A stretch of DNA of 64,000 nt from contig CAJANL010000294.1 of the NCBI GenBank assembly GCA_903941105.1, forward strand, positions 1 through 64,000. The letters run 5' to 3'. Below, piece after piece: positions 54,889-59,221 of this stretch; the first letter of the stretch is position 1, and every line of letters begins with the position of its first letter. The notes below the pieces were generated by a model. The model searched no databases, was not told the DNA's origin, and worked only from the letters and a program-made list of their open reading frames with translations. Position numbers and translations under genes: made by a program. The stretch comes from an uncultured Rhodospirillaceae bacterium. GTDB taxonomy: Bacteria; Pseudomonadota; Alphaproteobacteria; Rhodospirillales; Magnetospirillaceae.

Positions 54889-55374
54889 ATGCGAGTTCAT
54901 ATGCTCGTAATTGCATGGTTCATTGCCGCGGGTGCTCCGGCCGCCGGTGCCGCCGAGGCTCCCTGCGGTGCGATCGATGAAAGGCTGGTTCTTGACACCG
55001 GCGCCTTTATCCGGGCGAAGGAGGCGCTTTCCGCCAATGGCGGCGGTACCATTTCCTTCGCGGTCGGCAAATCCAGTGTCGGGAGGGGCGCCAGGGCCGG
55101 ACTCGACAAGGTGATCGCCTGGTTGATGGCCCATCCGGAGGGAAAGGTGACGCTCCAGGGCCACGCCGACGAGCCCGGCGCCGACGAATACAACCTGGCC
55201 CTGGGCGACAAGCGCGCCAACAGCGTACAGGCTTACATGGTGGCCCACGGCATCGAGCCCTCCCGGTTGTCCACCGTCACCTTTGGCCGCTCGCGCCCGC
55301 ATTTACGGGGCGACGCCGGCGCACACCGGAATGGCCGTGTCGAACTCGTGCTCGGCATAGAGGGATGCAGATGA
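54889..55374 (+). CDS. Periplasmic OmpA-domain protein
   Basis: 161 residues with a signal peptide (MLVIAWFIAAGAPAAGAAEA) and no lipobox. The OmpA C-terminal domain is recognisable: FAVGKSSVGRGARAGLDKVI, LQGHADEPGADEYNLALGDK, and a closing HRNGRVELVLG. The peptidoglycan-contact pattern deviates from the consensus (ADEPGADEYN for the usual TDxxGxxxYN) but keeps the aspartate. It may bind cell wall. Overlaps the next gene by 4 bp. Confidence 0.75.
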   Translation: MRVHMLVIAWFIAAGAPAAGAAEAPCGAIDERLVLDTGAFIRAKEALSANGGGTISFAVGKSSVGRGARAGLDKVIAWLMAHPEGKVTLQGHADEPGADEYNLALGDKRANSVQAYMVAHGIEPSRLSTVTFGRSRPHLRGDAGAHRNGRVELVLGIEGCR

Positions 55375-56492
55375 CGCCGAGGCCAGCGACGGGTTCAAGC
55401 GGGCGAGTGCTCGTCCTCGCTTTGGCGATGGTGGCGGCTTGCACCATCGCATCACCCGCATGCGCGGCCTGCACGGAGTTGCTCTGGGTTGAGAGCGCAA
55501 AGCCGGAGGACGCACCCCGACTCTCCTTAAGCAATTGCGATGTGACCGCCCACTTCGAAGGTCGCGGCCGGACGTCGCGCGTAATACTGCAATTGAAGGA
55601 GCCGGCTGCCAATGTGTGGCGGTCCGCCCTGGGCCCTAACGGCGACCTTTTCGGCGCACTGCTCGGTGCGGATCTGGCGGTGACGTCCCGCGTCGGCAGC
55701 ATTCCGGCGGCGCCGCTGCTCGCGTCCTATTCGGCGCGTGGTGCTGCAAGACATGCATGGCTCTGGGAGGCATCGTCGTCCGCACTCCGCATCGATCCGG
55801 TGGATCCCGCCGCCGGCACTGCCGGTGGCCGGTGCCCAAATGACGATGCCGGCACGCCAGTGCTATGGCTGAAGACGTTGGAAGCCCCGCCTGGAAGCCT
55901 GATCGCGCCAAGCCCGTTTCGAACGAGGCGCCCCGGCAGCTACGATCAGCTTGCACCGTCCTGCCTTGCCGGGTGGTTCCTCAGCGATGGCGCGCCAGCG
56001 GTCGTGCATCCTGCCCTGGGGCTGGCAATCGTGGCGCCTGAAGCCGTGGATGGCACGGTTTTCGAACTCCGCGCCCATCTGGCGGGTTACCCCAAAGGCA
56101 CCACGGTGGCGGGGCTTGTGCGGATAACCGATCCCAAGCTGCATCCACTTGGTGGGCGGTGGACCGAGACAGAGGAGAAGCAGTGCAATGGCACCGCTTG
56201 GCGAATTCCGGCCCGGCCGATCGGCGAATTGGTCTTCAATGCCGACGGAACCTTTACCCTGGTCAAGCAGCCCTTCGAAAGCTACTACGACTATTGGGGT
56301 ACCTATCACTACACGCCGCAATCAGGTGCTCTGACGATGGAGATCTCCGGCGGCAATAGCCTTCCGTCGGCGCGCTTGGCGAAAGGTACCGTCCGCATCA
56401 GTCCTGCCGGTGAGTTGCAGATGGAGGGGCTGCTGCCGGCAGATGCAAATTCCCCACAGCCGATCTGCGCACGCCGGCTTCGACGCGAATAG
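55371..56492 (+). CDS. Secreted hypothetical protein
   Basis: 373 residues from ATG 55371, overlapping the OmpA stop (ATGA); ATG 55365 is also possible. Signal peptide VLVLALAMVAACTIASPACA. A lipocalin-like C-terminal stretch is suggested by GELVFNADGTFTLVKQPFES and YYDYWGTYHYTPQSGALTME, which resembles small beta-barrel domains described as META or lipocalin-like, but the match is loose. Last gene of the rightward run from 54168; converges with the Pal-like gene 34 bp away. Confidence 0.55.
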   Translation: MTPRPATGSSGRVLVLALAMVAACTIASPACAACTELLWVESAKPEDAPRLSLSNCDVTAHFEGRGRTSRVILQLKEPAANVWRSALGPNGDLFGALLGADLAVTSRVGSIPAAPLLASYSARGAARHAWLWEASSSALRIDPVDPAAGTAGGRCPNDDAGTPVLWLKTLEAPPGSLIAPSPFRTRRPGSYDQLAPSCLAGWFLSDGAPAVVHPALGLAIVAPEAVDGTVFELRAHLAGYPKGTTVAGLVRITDPKLHPLGGRWTETEEKQCNGTAWRIPARPIGELVFNADGTFTLVKQPFESYYDYWGTYHYTPQSGALTMEISGGNSLPSARLAKGTVRISPAGELQMEGLLPADANSPQPICARRLRRE

Positions 56493-56526: not shown

Positions 56527-57006
56527 TCAGCGCAGTTGCGGCTTAACCTCGACTCGGCGGTTCCTGGCCCGGGCGGCTTCGCTGTCATCTTGAACCTCGG
56601 GGCGCGCCTTGCCGTAACCCAGGACTATTATCCGCTCGGGAACAATGCCGCGGGCAACCATGTAATTCTTGACCGCACCGGCCATGCGTTCGCTCACCGG
56701 CAGCAAATACTCCCGGGTGCCCTGATCGTCGGTATGGCCCTCCAGCACGACGGAGAATTCCGGGTGTTCCGTCAGCCAGGCAACCTGCTGATCGAGAACG
56801 GCCTTCGCGTCACCTCGGACTACGATGCTGTCCGCGTCGAAGTATAGCCGACTGCCCACTTTGCTGTAGAAGTCGTCGAGCGCCGGATCCGTCCCTGGCG
56901 GCGGTCCATAGACGCAGCCGGCTGTAAGTCCGATGACACCGGCACCACTGACGGCCATGGCCGAGGCGACGAAGCGGCGCAGAAAATTGCGTCTGTCATT
57001 GGCCAT
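56527..57006 (-). CDS. Pal-like lipoprotein with twin-arginine signal (second)
   Basis: 159 residues from ATG 57006. The signal begins MANDRRNFLRRF, a twin-arginine type motif (RRNFLRR), and ends in the lipobox LTAGC (cysteine 31). The mature part is an OmpA/Pal domain: RLYFDADSIVVRGDAKAVLD, LEGHTDDQGTREYLLPVSER, ARNRRVEVKPQ, with the aspartate and arginine that contact peptidoglycan kept. Pal is normally exported by Sec, not Tat, so this is unusual. It lies 10 bp after the first Pal-like gene. Confidence 0.8.
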   Translation of the reverse strand: MANDRRNFLRRFVASAMAVSGAGVIGLTAGCVYGPPPGTDPALDDFYSKVGSRLYFDADSIVVRGDAKAVLDQQVAWLTEHPEFSVVLEGHTDDQGTREYLLPVSERMAGAVKNYMVARGIVPERIIVLGYGKARPEVQDDSEAARARNRRVEVKPQLR

Positions 57007-57016
57007 GGGTTTCCTC

Positions 57017-57535
57017 CTATTGCGACAGCATGGTGACGCCACGGCGATTTTGATTCCAGGCGGCCTCGTTCGAACCGAGAGCAACCGGTCGCTCCTTGCC
57101 GTAGGAGACGGTCTTGATGCGGTTGTGGGCAACGCCGTTGGCAGCCAGGAACTTCTTGATGGTGTCGGCCCGCTTGGCGCCCAGGGCGAGGTTGTACTCG
57201 CGGGTGCCGCGTTCGTCGGCATGGCCTTCGATGGTCATGGTGTAGTTGGCGTAGTGGTTCAGCCAGGCGGCTTGCTTGGCCAGGATGGCCTTGGCATCGG
57301 CGCGCAGGGTCGCCTTGTCGATGTCGAAGTATACGCGGTCGCCGACATTCTCGACGAAATCCCTCATTGTCCCAGGGGCCGTCATGAGGACCGGCCTTAC
57401 CGGATTGGGGGGCGGCGCGCCGTAGACCACGTTATGGATGGGTTCCCGCTCGACCGGGAATTCGCAGCCGGCACCGGCGGCGGTCAGGGCGGTCGCCGCG
57501 AAGCGCAGCAGGAAATCGCGTCTGGTGTCAGTCAT
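57017..57535 (-). CDS. Pal-like lipoprotein with twin-arginine signal (first)
   Basis: 172 residues from ATG 57535, which overlaps the radical SAM stop by 8 bp. The signal MTDTRRDFLLRFAATALTAA has a twin-arginine motif (TRRDFLLR) and ends in a lipobox-like GAGC. A short proline-rich linker leads to the OmpA/Pal domain: RVYFDIDKATLRADAKAILA, IEGHADERGTREYNLALGAK, and NQNRRGVTML. The signal and domain order match those of the next gene, so the two are duplicates that have diverged. Confidence 0.8.
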   Translation of the reverse strand: MTDTRRDFLLRFAATALTAAGAGCEFPVEREPIHNVVYGAPPPNPVRPVLMTAPGTMRDFVENVGDRVYFDIDKATLRADAKAILAKQAAWLNHYANYTMTIEGHADERGTREYNLALGAKRADTIKKFLAANGVAHNRIKTVSYGKERPVALGSNEAAWNQNRRGVTMLSQ

Positions 57536-58661
57536 GGCACTCTCCAATTTCTCCAATTTTGCGCAGGCTGCAATTGGCGATGGTGGGATCCTCGGGATCG
57601 AACAGGTGAAACCCGCCGCCCTCGCAAAGATCCCAGTGTTCGCAGGCCTGGCAGGACTCGGGTGCGGTGGCGTGGCGCTCCTGGCGGAACCGGCCGAAGC
57701 CGCTATCCCAGAGTTCGAGAAAATCCGTGTCCTTGATGCTGCCTTCGGTGAAACGGCGCGAGACGCTGGGGCATCCGGTGACGCCGCCGTCATGCAGGAT
57801 CGAGGCGATCACCGTGCCCGAGCCGCAGTAATGCATGCCCTCTCGAATGCGGCATTCCCAGTTCGGCCCCCAATAGCCCTCCTCGCTGAGGGTGACGACA
57901 ATATCGTCGCGGGTCTGGCGGGCCTCGGCGATGAAGCTCAGCAATTGCCGGTATTGCTCGCCCGACAGCATCAGCCCCGACTTGCGGCCGGCGCGCCCGC
58001 GCGAAAACACCGGCGTGAACCGCACCTGCGGCACGCCCAGGGCGACAAGGTGGTCGACGAAGGGGCCAAGTCGGTCGATGTTCAGCGTGCTGACACAGCA
58101 GATGACGTCGAAGGCGCGGTAGAAGGGATCGGCGACCAGGCGGGATAGCGCCTGCGACACCCGCCGGAAGGCGCCTTGATGCTGACGCAGGGTGTCGTGA
58201 TCCTCCTCCAGGCCGTCGAGGCTGACCGAGATGGTGCAAAGGCCGGCTGCCTTCAGCGAGGCCAGCCGCTCGGCATCCAGCAGCATGCCGTTGGTGGTGA
58301 TGCCCCAGGCGAATCCCAGGCCGGCGGCAAAGGCCCCGACCTCATCGATGTCCGGGCGTATCAGCGGTTCGCCGCCGATGATGGCGAATGTGATGGATCG
58401 TGGATCGTAGCGGCCGGCGATGGCCGCCAACTGGCCCTTGACCAGTTCCGGCGCCAGTTCGCGGTCGCGGGTGGAGTTGTCGCGCAGGCAGTCGCTGCCG
58501 CAATGGCGGCAGGCGAGATTGCAGCGCAGCGTCGATTCCCAGAACAGGTAGCGCAGCGGATGGTCAGCCGCAAGGCGGGCCTTGCTGTCGATGAAGCGTT
58601 CAAGGCTGTCGGCCAGGGCTTCCGTGTGCCGATGCTCCATCACCAGGTCGTCGCCGATCAT
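57528..58661 (-). CDS. Radical SAM/SPASM enzyme (peptide maturase type)
   Basis: 377 residues from ATG 58661 (AGGTGG 8 bp upstream). The radical SAM cluster is CNLACRHC (Cys 47, 51, 54). IIGGEPLIRPDI corresponds to the GGEP SAM-binding motif. The C-terminal SPASM region adds cysteines in MHYCGSGT, VTGCPSVSRRFTEGSIKD, SCQACEHWDLCEGGG and ANCSLRK for one or two auxiliary 4Fe-4S clusters. SPASM enzymes modify peptides or proteins in the cytoplasm. Overlaps both neighbours (4 bp and 8 bp), so it is tightly coupled to the thioredoxin-like gene before it and the Pal-like genes after it. Confidence 0.85.
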   Translation of the reverse strand: MIGDDLVMEHRHTEALADSLERFIDSKARLAADHPLRYLFWESTLRCNLACRHCGSDCLRDNSTRDRELAPELVKGQLAAIAGRYDPRSITFAIIGGEPLIRPDIDEVGAFAAGLGFAWGITTNGMLLDAERLASLKAAGLCTISVSLDGLEEDHDTLRQHQGAFRRVSQALSRLVADPFYRAFDVICCVSTLNIDRLGPFVDHLVALGVPQVRFTPVFSRGRAGRKSGLMLSGEQYRQLLSFIAEARQTRDDIVVTLSEEGYWGPNWECRIREGMHYCGSGTVIASILHDGGVTGCPSVSRRFTEGSIKDTDFLELWDSGFGRFRQERHATAPESCQACEHWDLCEGGGFHLFDPEDPTIANCSLRKIGEIGECHD

Positions 58662-59221
58662 GCTGATCCCACCTGTGCGAAGAGCGCGTCCAAGTCGTGT
58701 GGCACGCCGGCGATCGCCTGCACGCGGCCGCCCCGGTCGGCGAAGATCAGCGTCGGATAGCCGGTCAGGTTGATCTTGGGCGCGACCGTCTTGATGGCCC
58801 CCTCGGACCTGACCAGCGTGAGCAGCGCCTGGGTGTTCTTCTGCAGGTCCGCAATCTCGGCCCCGGGCTCCAAGAAAATGCGCGTCAGCATATCGAGTGA
58901 CCGGTTGCTGACCACGTTGAGATTTTGGTTGGTGGAGCGGTCGTCGCGGCTGCCGCCGGCAACCCATCTGAGTTGAACACCGTCGCGAGCCCCGCGAGTC
59001 CGCTGGAACAGGATCTTGCAGACGGGGCACCAAGGGGCGAACACTACATAGGCATGGCGTCGGCTTTCCGCCCCGTCGGCGATCCAGGGTGCCAGGGACA
59101 GGGCGTCGAGCACGTCTTTGCCTTGAGAGATTGGGCCCTGAGAGACTGGCTCTGCCATGGCCCGAAGGGGCAATAGCATGCCGAGCCCCAGGGTCAGTAT
59201 TCCGCGCCGGCTGATGCCCAT
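58658..59221 (-). CDS. Tat-signal thioredoxin-fold protein (CPVC)
   Basis: 187 residues from ATG 59221 (AGGAGT upstream). The signal MGISRRGILTLGLGMLLPLR carries a twin-arginine motif (SRRGIL) and ends near AMA. The mature domain has APWCPVCKILF (Cys 65 and 68) and a cis-proline LTGYPTLIF, as in DsbA/DsbC/DsbG-type proteins, though too short for the full DsbC dimer form. It would act in the periplasm on disulfides or iron-sulfur-linked folding. First gene of a four-gene operon with the radical SAM and Pal-like genes. Confidence 0.78.
   Translation of the reverse strand: MGISRRGILTLGLGMLLPLRAMAEPVSQGPISQGKDVLDALSLAPWIADGAESRRHAYVVFAPWCPVCKILFQRTRGARDGVQLRWVAGGSRDDRSTNQNLNVVSNRSLDMLTRIFLEPGAEIADLQKNTQALLTLVRSEGAIKTVAPKINLTGYPTLIFADRGGRVQAIAGVPHDLDALFAQVGSA

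Follow-up and report, generated by a model that had tools for sequence, protein, structure and literature searches.

What a radical SAM/SPASM enzyme may do beside the genes of two exported OmpA-domain proteins is the question raised by a cluster of leftward genes in an uncultured Rhodospirillaceae bacterium (GCA_903941105.1), located in the 64,000-nucleotide stretch of the contig CAJANL010000294.1 that was analysed as a whole (the window). The original prediction described a four-gene operon, in which Pal-like lipoproteins exported through the twin-arginine (Tat) route could first be modified in the cytoplasm by the enzyme. The sequence comparisons presented below lend good support to the idea that the radical SAM enzyme acts on the exported Pal-like proteins, and the conserved unit is the radical SAM/SPASM enzyme with an adjacent exported protein, not a four-gene operon. 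It is suggested that the enzyme edits its exported partners at the motif X-Tyr-Gly-x-Pro, and to this two-part maturation account as a whole a probability of roughly 0.55 may be assigned.

Genes of the Locus

Translation of all four frames bore out the four leftward genes, all on the minus strand, three of which overlap, by 4 bp (P0001/P0002) and 8 bp (P0002/P0003), as had been claimed for the whole set, whereas the OmpA genes P0003 and P0004 are separated by a gap of 10 bp. The gene of P0001 (58658..59221, minus strand) encodes an exported-type thioredoxin/DsbG-like protein of 187 aa with the motifs WCPVC and SRRGIL, as judged from the translation and profile searches; the CPVC centre is present as predicted, but the matches to the thioredoxin and DsbG profiles are weak and under the cut-offs, the best NCBIfam match, DsbG, reaching 28 bits where 124 are required, and Pfam Thioredoxin 21.5 where 23.5 are required. 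The gene of P0002 (57528..58661, minus strand) encodes the radical SAM/SPASM enzyme of 377 aa, whose predicted class is confirmed by Pfam (Radical_SAM, 60.4 bits; SPASM, 28.8 bits), and which is regarded, from translation, profiles, trees and the structure model, as a divergent TIGR04133 relative and a proposed splicease-like maturase.

Partner 1, P0003 (57017..57535, minus strand; 172 aa), combines, according to translation, profiles, alignment and model, a TRRDFLLR signal, a linker with VVYGAPPP and an OmpA/Pal domain; its proposed edited site, VYGAPPP, comprises residues 37-43, whose codons occupy 57407..57427 of the minus strand, as computed from the start codon at 57535 and supported by the alignment. 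Partner 2, P0004 (56527..57006, minus strand; 159 aa), contains, by translation and profiles, a DRRNFLRR signal, the sequence GCVYGPPPG directly at the putative lipidation Cys, and an OmpA domain, the codons of the proposed edited site CVYGPP (residues 31-36) lying at 56899..56916 of the same strand, as computed from the start codon at 57006. The pair had been described as OmpA/Pal lipoproteins: the OmpA domain was found in both (Pfam, 78.7 bits in P0003 and 66.5 bits in P0004), but the Pal cut-off (TIGR02802, 125.35) is passed by P0003 only (142.1; P0004 remains below it with 98.0), and the lipoboxes of both are non-canonical (GAGC; TAGC). For P0003 and P0004, no Pfam match besides OmpA was obtained at E<=0.01, and the Nif11/NHLP leader models are absent from the best 25 of 39 (P0003) and the best 25 of 36 (P0004) NCBIfam matches. 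The twin-arginine motifs announced for the three exported proteins are indeed seen in the translations of P0001, P0003 and P0004, in which they were read by eye. A more typical Pal candidate appears to be encoded elsewhere in the same genome (L128).

For comparison, 11 distinct alphaproteobacterial loci were considered: that of the own genome of the window, nine others of the order sample, and one of a Rhodopila MAG. Among them, a thioredoxin gene stands beside the enzyme only in the window; for the 10 other loci, represented by 11 stretches, tblastn gave no homologue of P0001 at E<=1 (the flank being short in L074, whose enzyme gene is close to the end of its contig), and the thioredoxin as a conserved partner, and with it the four-gene operon as a conserved unit, was rejected. 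Thus, from the co-occurrence of four families proposed for checking, the pairing of the enzyme with an exported partner is retained at 11/11 loci, but neither the thioredoxin nor the OmpA domain is constant.

The Enzyme and Its Distribution

The cysteines of the CX3CX2C motif (C47, C51, C54) and of the SPASM domain (C279, C297, C337, C340, C346) of P0002 are invariant in an alignment of 20 sequences, and the AlphaFold model of the enzyme (mean pLDDT 84.5) contains a long N-terminal helix. Against the NCBIfam profile TIGR04133 (rSAM_w_lipo), P0002 scores 300 bits (E 1.9e-89), which is below the curated cut-off of 425, and in the trees it falls in one clade with the TIGR04133 family (100/99). 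The enzyme/lipoprotein pair is already present in NCBIfam, in the parts of its records consulted, as the hypothetical equivalogs TIGR04133/TIGR04134 (the latter named lipo_with_rSAM), which qualifies the claim that no system of this kind had been described.

The enzyme occurs at E<=1e-40 in 10 of the 297 genomes of the order sample, and in the family sample in 9 of 55, the own genome being included in both counts; in the class sample (1/385) and in the phylum-wide profile search (1/398) it was found in the own genome only, i.e., it is rare in Pseudomonadota. An additional enzyme is encoded in one Rhodopila MAG. Outside this phylum, 4 of 247 genomes from the class of a Bacteroidales genome contain it, and the TIGR04133 cut-off was exceeded in 14 of the 15 searched genomes behind the known loci. 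Twenty weaker matches (L047-L066) were left uncounted, and so was L046, placed by the tree among the GDL/PlpX-like enzymes.

Partner Proteins in Alphaproteobacteria

The gene beside the enzyme encodes, at all 11 alphaproteobacterial loci, an exported-type protein with XYG, and the longer pattern YG.P is fitted at 10 of them. An OmpA domain is found in the partner at 9/11 loci, and at 8/11 the signal ends with a Cys, a putative lipidation site; the OmpA partner of the genome G195 has no lipobox Cys and keeps the YG site. The N-terminus of the partner resembles (S/T)RRDFLLRFA throughout, with the variants RRNFLRR in P0004, NRDFLLRF in G273 and KRDFLLRW in Rhodopila; the twin-arginine signal is present at nine loci, with KR and NR in the remaining two, and a signal of this type fits export after cytoplasmic modification. 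The partner in G273 is a protein of 94 aa with VIYGPPP, and that in Rhodopila is a RiPP-like peptide of 88 aa, in which a leader end of the GG type (LTDSEIAAVAGG) is combined with three YG sites. Both lack the OmpA domain, which, as a candidate substrate, is therefore rejected as the common factor; of the predicted action of the enzyme on Pal-like partners, the pairing stood at every locus, but the Pal-like character failed at two of the 11.

In P0003, the residues V37, Y38, G39, P41 and P42 are invariant in six aligned homologues, the linker around them being variable in length and sequence, and in the structure model the residues 31-40 (mean pLDDT 53) form a low-confidence stretch by which the signal helix is linked to the OmpA fold. 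The pattern YG.P was counted in 13 of 14 alphaproteobacterial partner proteins, against 0.39 expected after shuffling, and YG.PP in 11 of the 14. The comparisons thus give good support to X-Tyr-Gly, mostly X-Tyr-Gly-x-Pro, soon after the signal peptide, as the constant feature of the partner.

The Same Site in Bacteroidota and Treponema

Outside Alphaproteobacteria, 32 distinct TIGR04133 loci remained after the removal of same-place duplicates (e.g., L027, L028, L044, L067-L076, L077, L078, L080-L091, L102), 31 of them in genomes of Bacteroidales or of the class to which these belong and one on a Treponema plasmid. With all frames and the divergent strand read, a lipoprotein-type ORF with XYG was found near the enzyme at 32/32 loci, the partner gene being divergently transcribed at seven. 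The Tyr of XYG lies 1-61 residues after the Cys, and at 14/32 loci (L043, L045, L093-L101, L104, L105, L108) it follows the lipobox Cys directly (ACYG, SCYG). YG.P is present at 28/32 loci (27 by a script recount, plus L095 with ACYGMP), such sites as MYGQP, MYGVPP, MYGTPY and EYGTPS being examples from this set; in both sets together, the partner contains YG, not just Y, at 43/43 loci, and P at +2 is missing after YG at five (L029, L043, L045, L093, L096). Around these loci, 214 lipoprotein-like stretches were taken without selection, and the pattern occurs within 75 residues of the Cys in 36 of them, whereas shuffling predicts 1.51; another Bacteroidota shuffle set (36/49 versus 1.20 expected) was picked for having YG and is, therefore, biased.

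The short repeat-rich lipoproteins of this set include one of 80 aa with three MYGPP and one of 76 aa with two. Some partners in Bacteroidota/Treponema consist of hardly anything beyond a signal peptide and repeats. From five partners scanned with TIGR04134, two pass the cut-off and three match below it, two of these three over the first 27-40 residues only; no OmpA domain was detected in the five, and two of them gave weak Ig-like or carboxypeptidase-regulatory-like matches. Twin arginines were read by eye in the partner signals at only 3/32 loci (L037, L040, L042), compared with 9/11 in Alphaproteobacteria, so that Tat export could not be upheld as a general feature of the system.

Relation to the Spliceases

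Among 60 listed of the 236 plasmid records matched by P0002, the top enzyme outside TIGR04133 (114 bits) is a 'nif11-class peptide radical SAM maturase 3' of a Nostoc plasmid, which reaches 853 bits against TIGR04103 (cut-off 725), a profile that we take to be identical with IPR026482. This enzyme adjoins a Nif11 precursor ending in ALYGLPPELF (GGRGSIALYGLPPELF), with a 71-aa protein at the position that PlpY would occupy, and it stands in for PlpX in the comparisons made here, its PlpX activity being assumed. The identity of P0002 to the PlpX-like enzyme is 28%, i.e., distant, and that of the GDL maturases is 47-48%; the DUF1843 peptides beside the GDL maturases carry [LMP]Y[GMA] in 11/11 read. 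No PlpY-like partner was found beside the TIGR04133 enzymes, the only tblastn match extending over 20 residues (E 0.27), although PlpX itself acts together with PlpY.

A clade uniting TIGR04133 with the PlpX-like/GDL enzymes, as against MftC, PqqE, NirJ and TIGR04347, received a support of 90/77 in the first tree and of 100/99 in the third, from which eight long-branched rows were dropped; in the second tree, with the own-genome enzymes added, this grouping (20/89) had no resolution and the branches were long. The clade nearest to TIGR04133 includes the 'nif11-class maturase 3' enzymes. When the enzymes are ranked by similarity to that of Rhodopila, several other SPASM enzymes come before the PlpX-like protein.

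As published, the PlpXY splicease excises tyramine from XYG, the natural sites being MYG and LYG and the leader being not required (PMC10533398). The tags tested with PlpXY read PIRP(L/G)YGLPI, and another tag, GYGVVFP, is without Pro at +2 (PMC10533398). In the case of FtsZ, the enzyme accepted no more than 2 of the 16 tag constructs; both contained PIRPGYGLPI, whereas the two with LYGLPI failed (PMC10533398). Therefore, context matters, not the short motif alone. In a review, the PlpX subclass is named IPR026482 and the ketoamide moiety is described as used for protease inhibition (PMC11002830).

Proposed Maturation and Its Alternatives

The exported partner proteins are probably edited before export, because three phyla combine this enzyme family with one and the same site, which is similar to the splicease tag, and the XYG(x)P site of the linker is very likely the substrate of the enzyme. 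Concerning the chemistry, the motif and the moderate kinship taken together favour tyramine excision, with odds somewhat better than even. The enzyme would bind the N-terminal region of its partner, where the Rhodopila peptide, too, retains the segment RDFLLR (with KR for RR), and would edit X-Tyr-Gly-x-Pro in the cytoplasm, within the flexible linker after the signal peptide; the edited partner would then be exported, in the window by the twin-arginine-type signal. The mature protein would bear a reactive electrophilic ketoamide near the membrane anchor, here beside a peptidoglycan-binding-type domain, and at sites in which the lipobox Cys takes the position of X (ACYGVP, SCYGMP), editing would affect the very residue that is lipidated. 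Such a tethered ketoamide might serve as a covalent trap for proteases or amines; since the ketoamide has been used for protease inhibition (PMC11002830), the mature protein may act as a tethered protease trap, a role proposed with low confidence.

The strongest alternative, which is possible but clearly less probable than tyramine excision, assumes the same Tyr-Gly site but a different chemistry: the Tyr might be cross-linked (cyclophane, ether), or the site might undergo epimerisation or a reaction at C-beta. The reactions of SPASM enzymes are diverse, and the best solved-structure matches of the P0002 model, SkfB, PqqE, an anaerobic sulfatase maturase and SuiB, comprise several RiPP maturases together with PqqE, no close relative by sequence being found among the solved structures (best E 5.2e-8). 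Moreover, P0002 scores nearly equally against MftC (105.5 bits), whose precursor ends in Val-Tyr (CGVY), and TIGR04103 (104.4 bits), and kinship alone would, therefore, not settle the reaction. However, the conservation of YG, and not of Y alone, at every locus, the agreement of the motif with the splicease tags, including P at +2, and the preference of the best-resolved tree for the PlpX side argue for the excision, and the internal position of the site makes a decarboxylation of the MftC kind a poorer fit.

It is improbable that the motif serves the lipoproteins solely in their structure or export and that the enzyme acts elsewhere. This reading draws on the modification being a prediction from sequence, but the motif recurs in unrelated proteins beside the enzyme family in three phyla, as well as in the Nif11 RiPP precursor adjoining the related Nostoc enzyme. 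In the own genome, 14 of the 15 OmpA-domain proteins were read (L133, near a contig end, being the one left), and YG.P is present only in the two beside the enzyme and absent from the 12 others. Slightly less credible still is the original explanation, by which the folded Pal/OmpA domain is modified and Tat export is used for this reason: the OmpA domain and the twin-arginine-type signal of the partner at 9/11 alphaproteobacterial loci agree with it, but the partners in G273 and Rhodopila keep YG without OmpA, and the Bacteroidota/Treponema partners have OmpA in 0/5 scanned and twin arginines only rarely.

Significance

With tyramine excision at the linker site as the preferred reading, the uncharacterised enzyme/lipoprotein pair of NCBIfam gains a defined substrate site and a defined reaction, both of them testable. 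If this reading is true, bacteria of the gut and of the environment would mature their envelope proteins partly through backbone editing by a radical enzyme, the edited peptides would be missed by mass spectrometry with standard databases, and the enzymes of the TyrEx-labelling type would be joined by others whose substrates are native exported proteins and need no RiPP leader. The pair is known already as catalogued in NCBIfam, and the spliceotides have been described; the connection between the two appears to be new within the literature searched, in which no mention was found of TIGR04133, TIGR04134 or 'radical SAM-associated putative lipoprotein', nor of 'lipoprotein splicease', most subscription papers being outside the scope of this search.

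Comparison with Known Systems

The TIGR04133/TIGR04134 pair is among the nearest known systems, with P0002 in the same enzyme clade and an exported XYG partner alongside; the differences are the score of P0002 below the family cut-off and the alphaproteobacterial partners, which are mostly twin-arginine OmpA proteins. PlpXY of Pleurocapsa is similar in its SPASM enzyme of the neighbouring clade, insofar as the Nostoc TIGR04103 enzyme represents PlpX, and in the motif XYG of its substrates, one type of tag also having P at +2 (PMC10533398). In contrast, the system of the window type has neither a PlpY-like partner found nor a Nif11 leader, and its putative substrates are exported proteins, many of them with a folded domain. 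The GDL-motif/DUF1843 maturases (TIGR03913) are comparable through the [LMP]Y[GMA] of the DUF1843 peptides and an enzyme close to the PlpX-like one, but the peptides are short, have no evident signal peptides, and their Gly is not strict. Pal (TIGR02802) shares the OmpA domain with the partners of the window, P0003 being over its cut-off, whereas these partners are distinguished from it by a twin-arginine-type signal, a YG site and a radical SAM neighbour.

Gene neighbourhood of the operon

Near the operon, the forward strand carries the gene of P0006, a further OmpA-domain protein besides the enzyme's partners P0003 and P0004, followed by that of P0007, an unclassified protein of exported type (together 54889-56492, +), and a P0007 homologue with 59% identity lies immediately upstream of the enzyme in another alphaproteobacterial genome, G195 (locus L067). 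The gene of P0005 (59460-62294, +), a protein of 944 aa with VIT, TPR and DUF2135 domains by Pfam, is divergently oriented relative to the radical SAM operon, and Magnetospirillum moscoviense (L068) has a copy with 73% identity, which lies upstream of the enzyme at a distance of about 3 kb.

Tyr-Gly sites in related systems

Among the 32 TIGR04133 loci, 14 (L043, L045, L093-L101, L104, L105 and L108) encode a lipoprotein with Tyr-Gly immediately C-terminal to the lipobox Cys (ACYG, SCYG), and therefore, if the XYG editing holds true, the edited residue in these lipoproteins would be the lipidated Cys itself.

Related radical SAM enzymes are also carried by plasmids, such as the PlpX/GDL-related enzyme of Agathobacter rectalis (L116:2998-4152), downstream of the EF-G and EF-Tu genes, and the GDL-like enzyme of Tropicibacter, whose gene belongs to a row (L115:2674-6365) that also includes another radical SAM gene and genes for a phosphotransferase, a trypsin-like peptidase and an M23 peptidase. 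In the DUF1843 (GDL) peptides adjoining PlpX-like maturases (L111-L114), the motif [LMP]Y[GMA] near the N-terminus is present in all 11 of 11, which suggests the same Tyr as a target in these peptides too.
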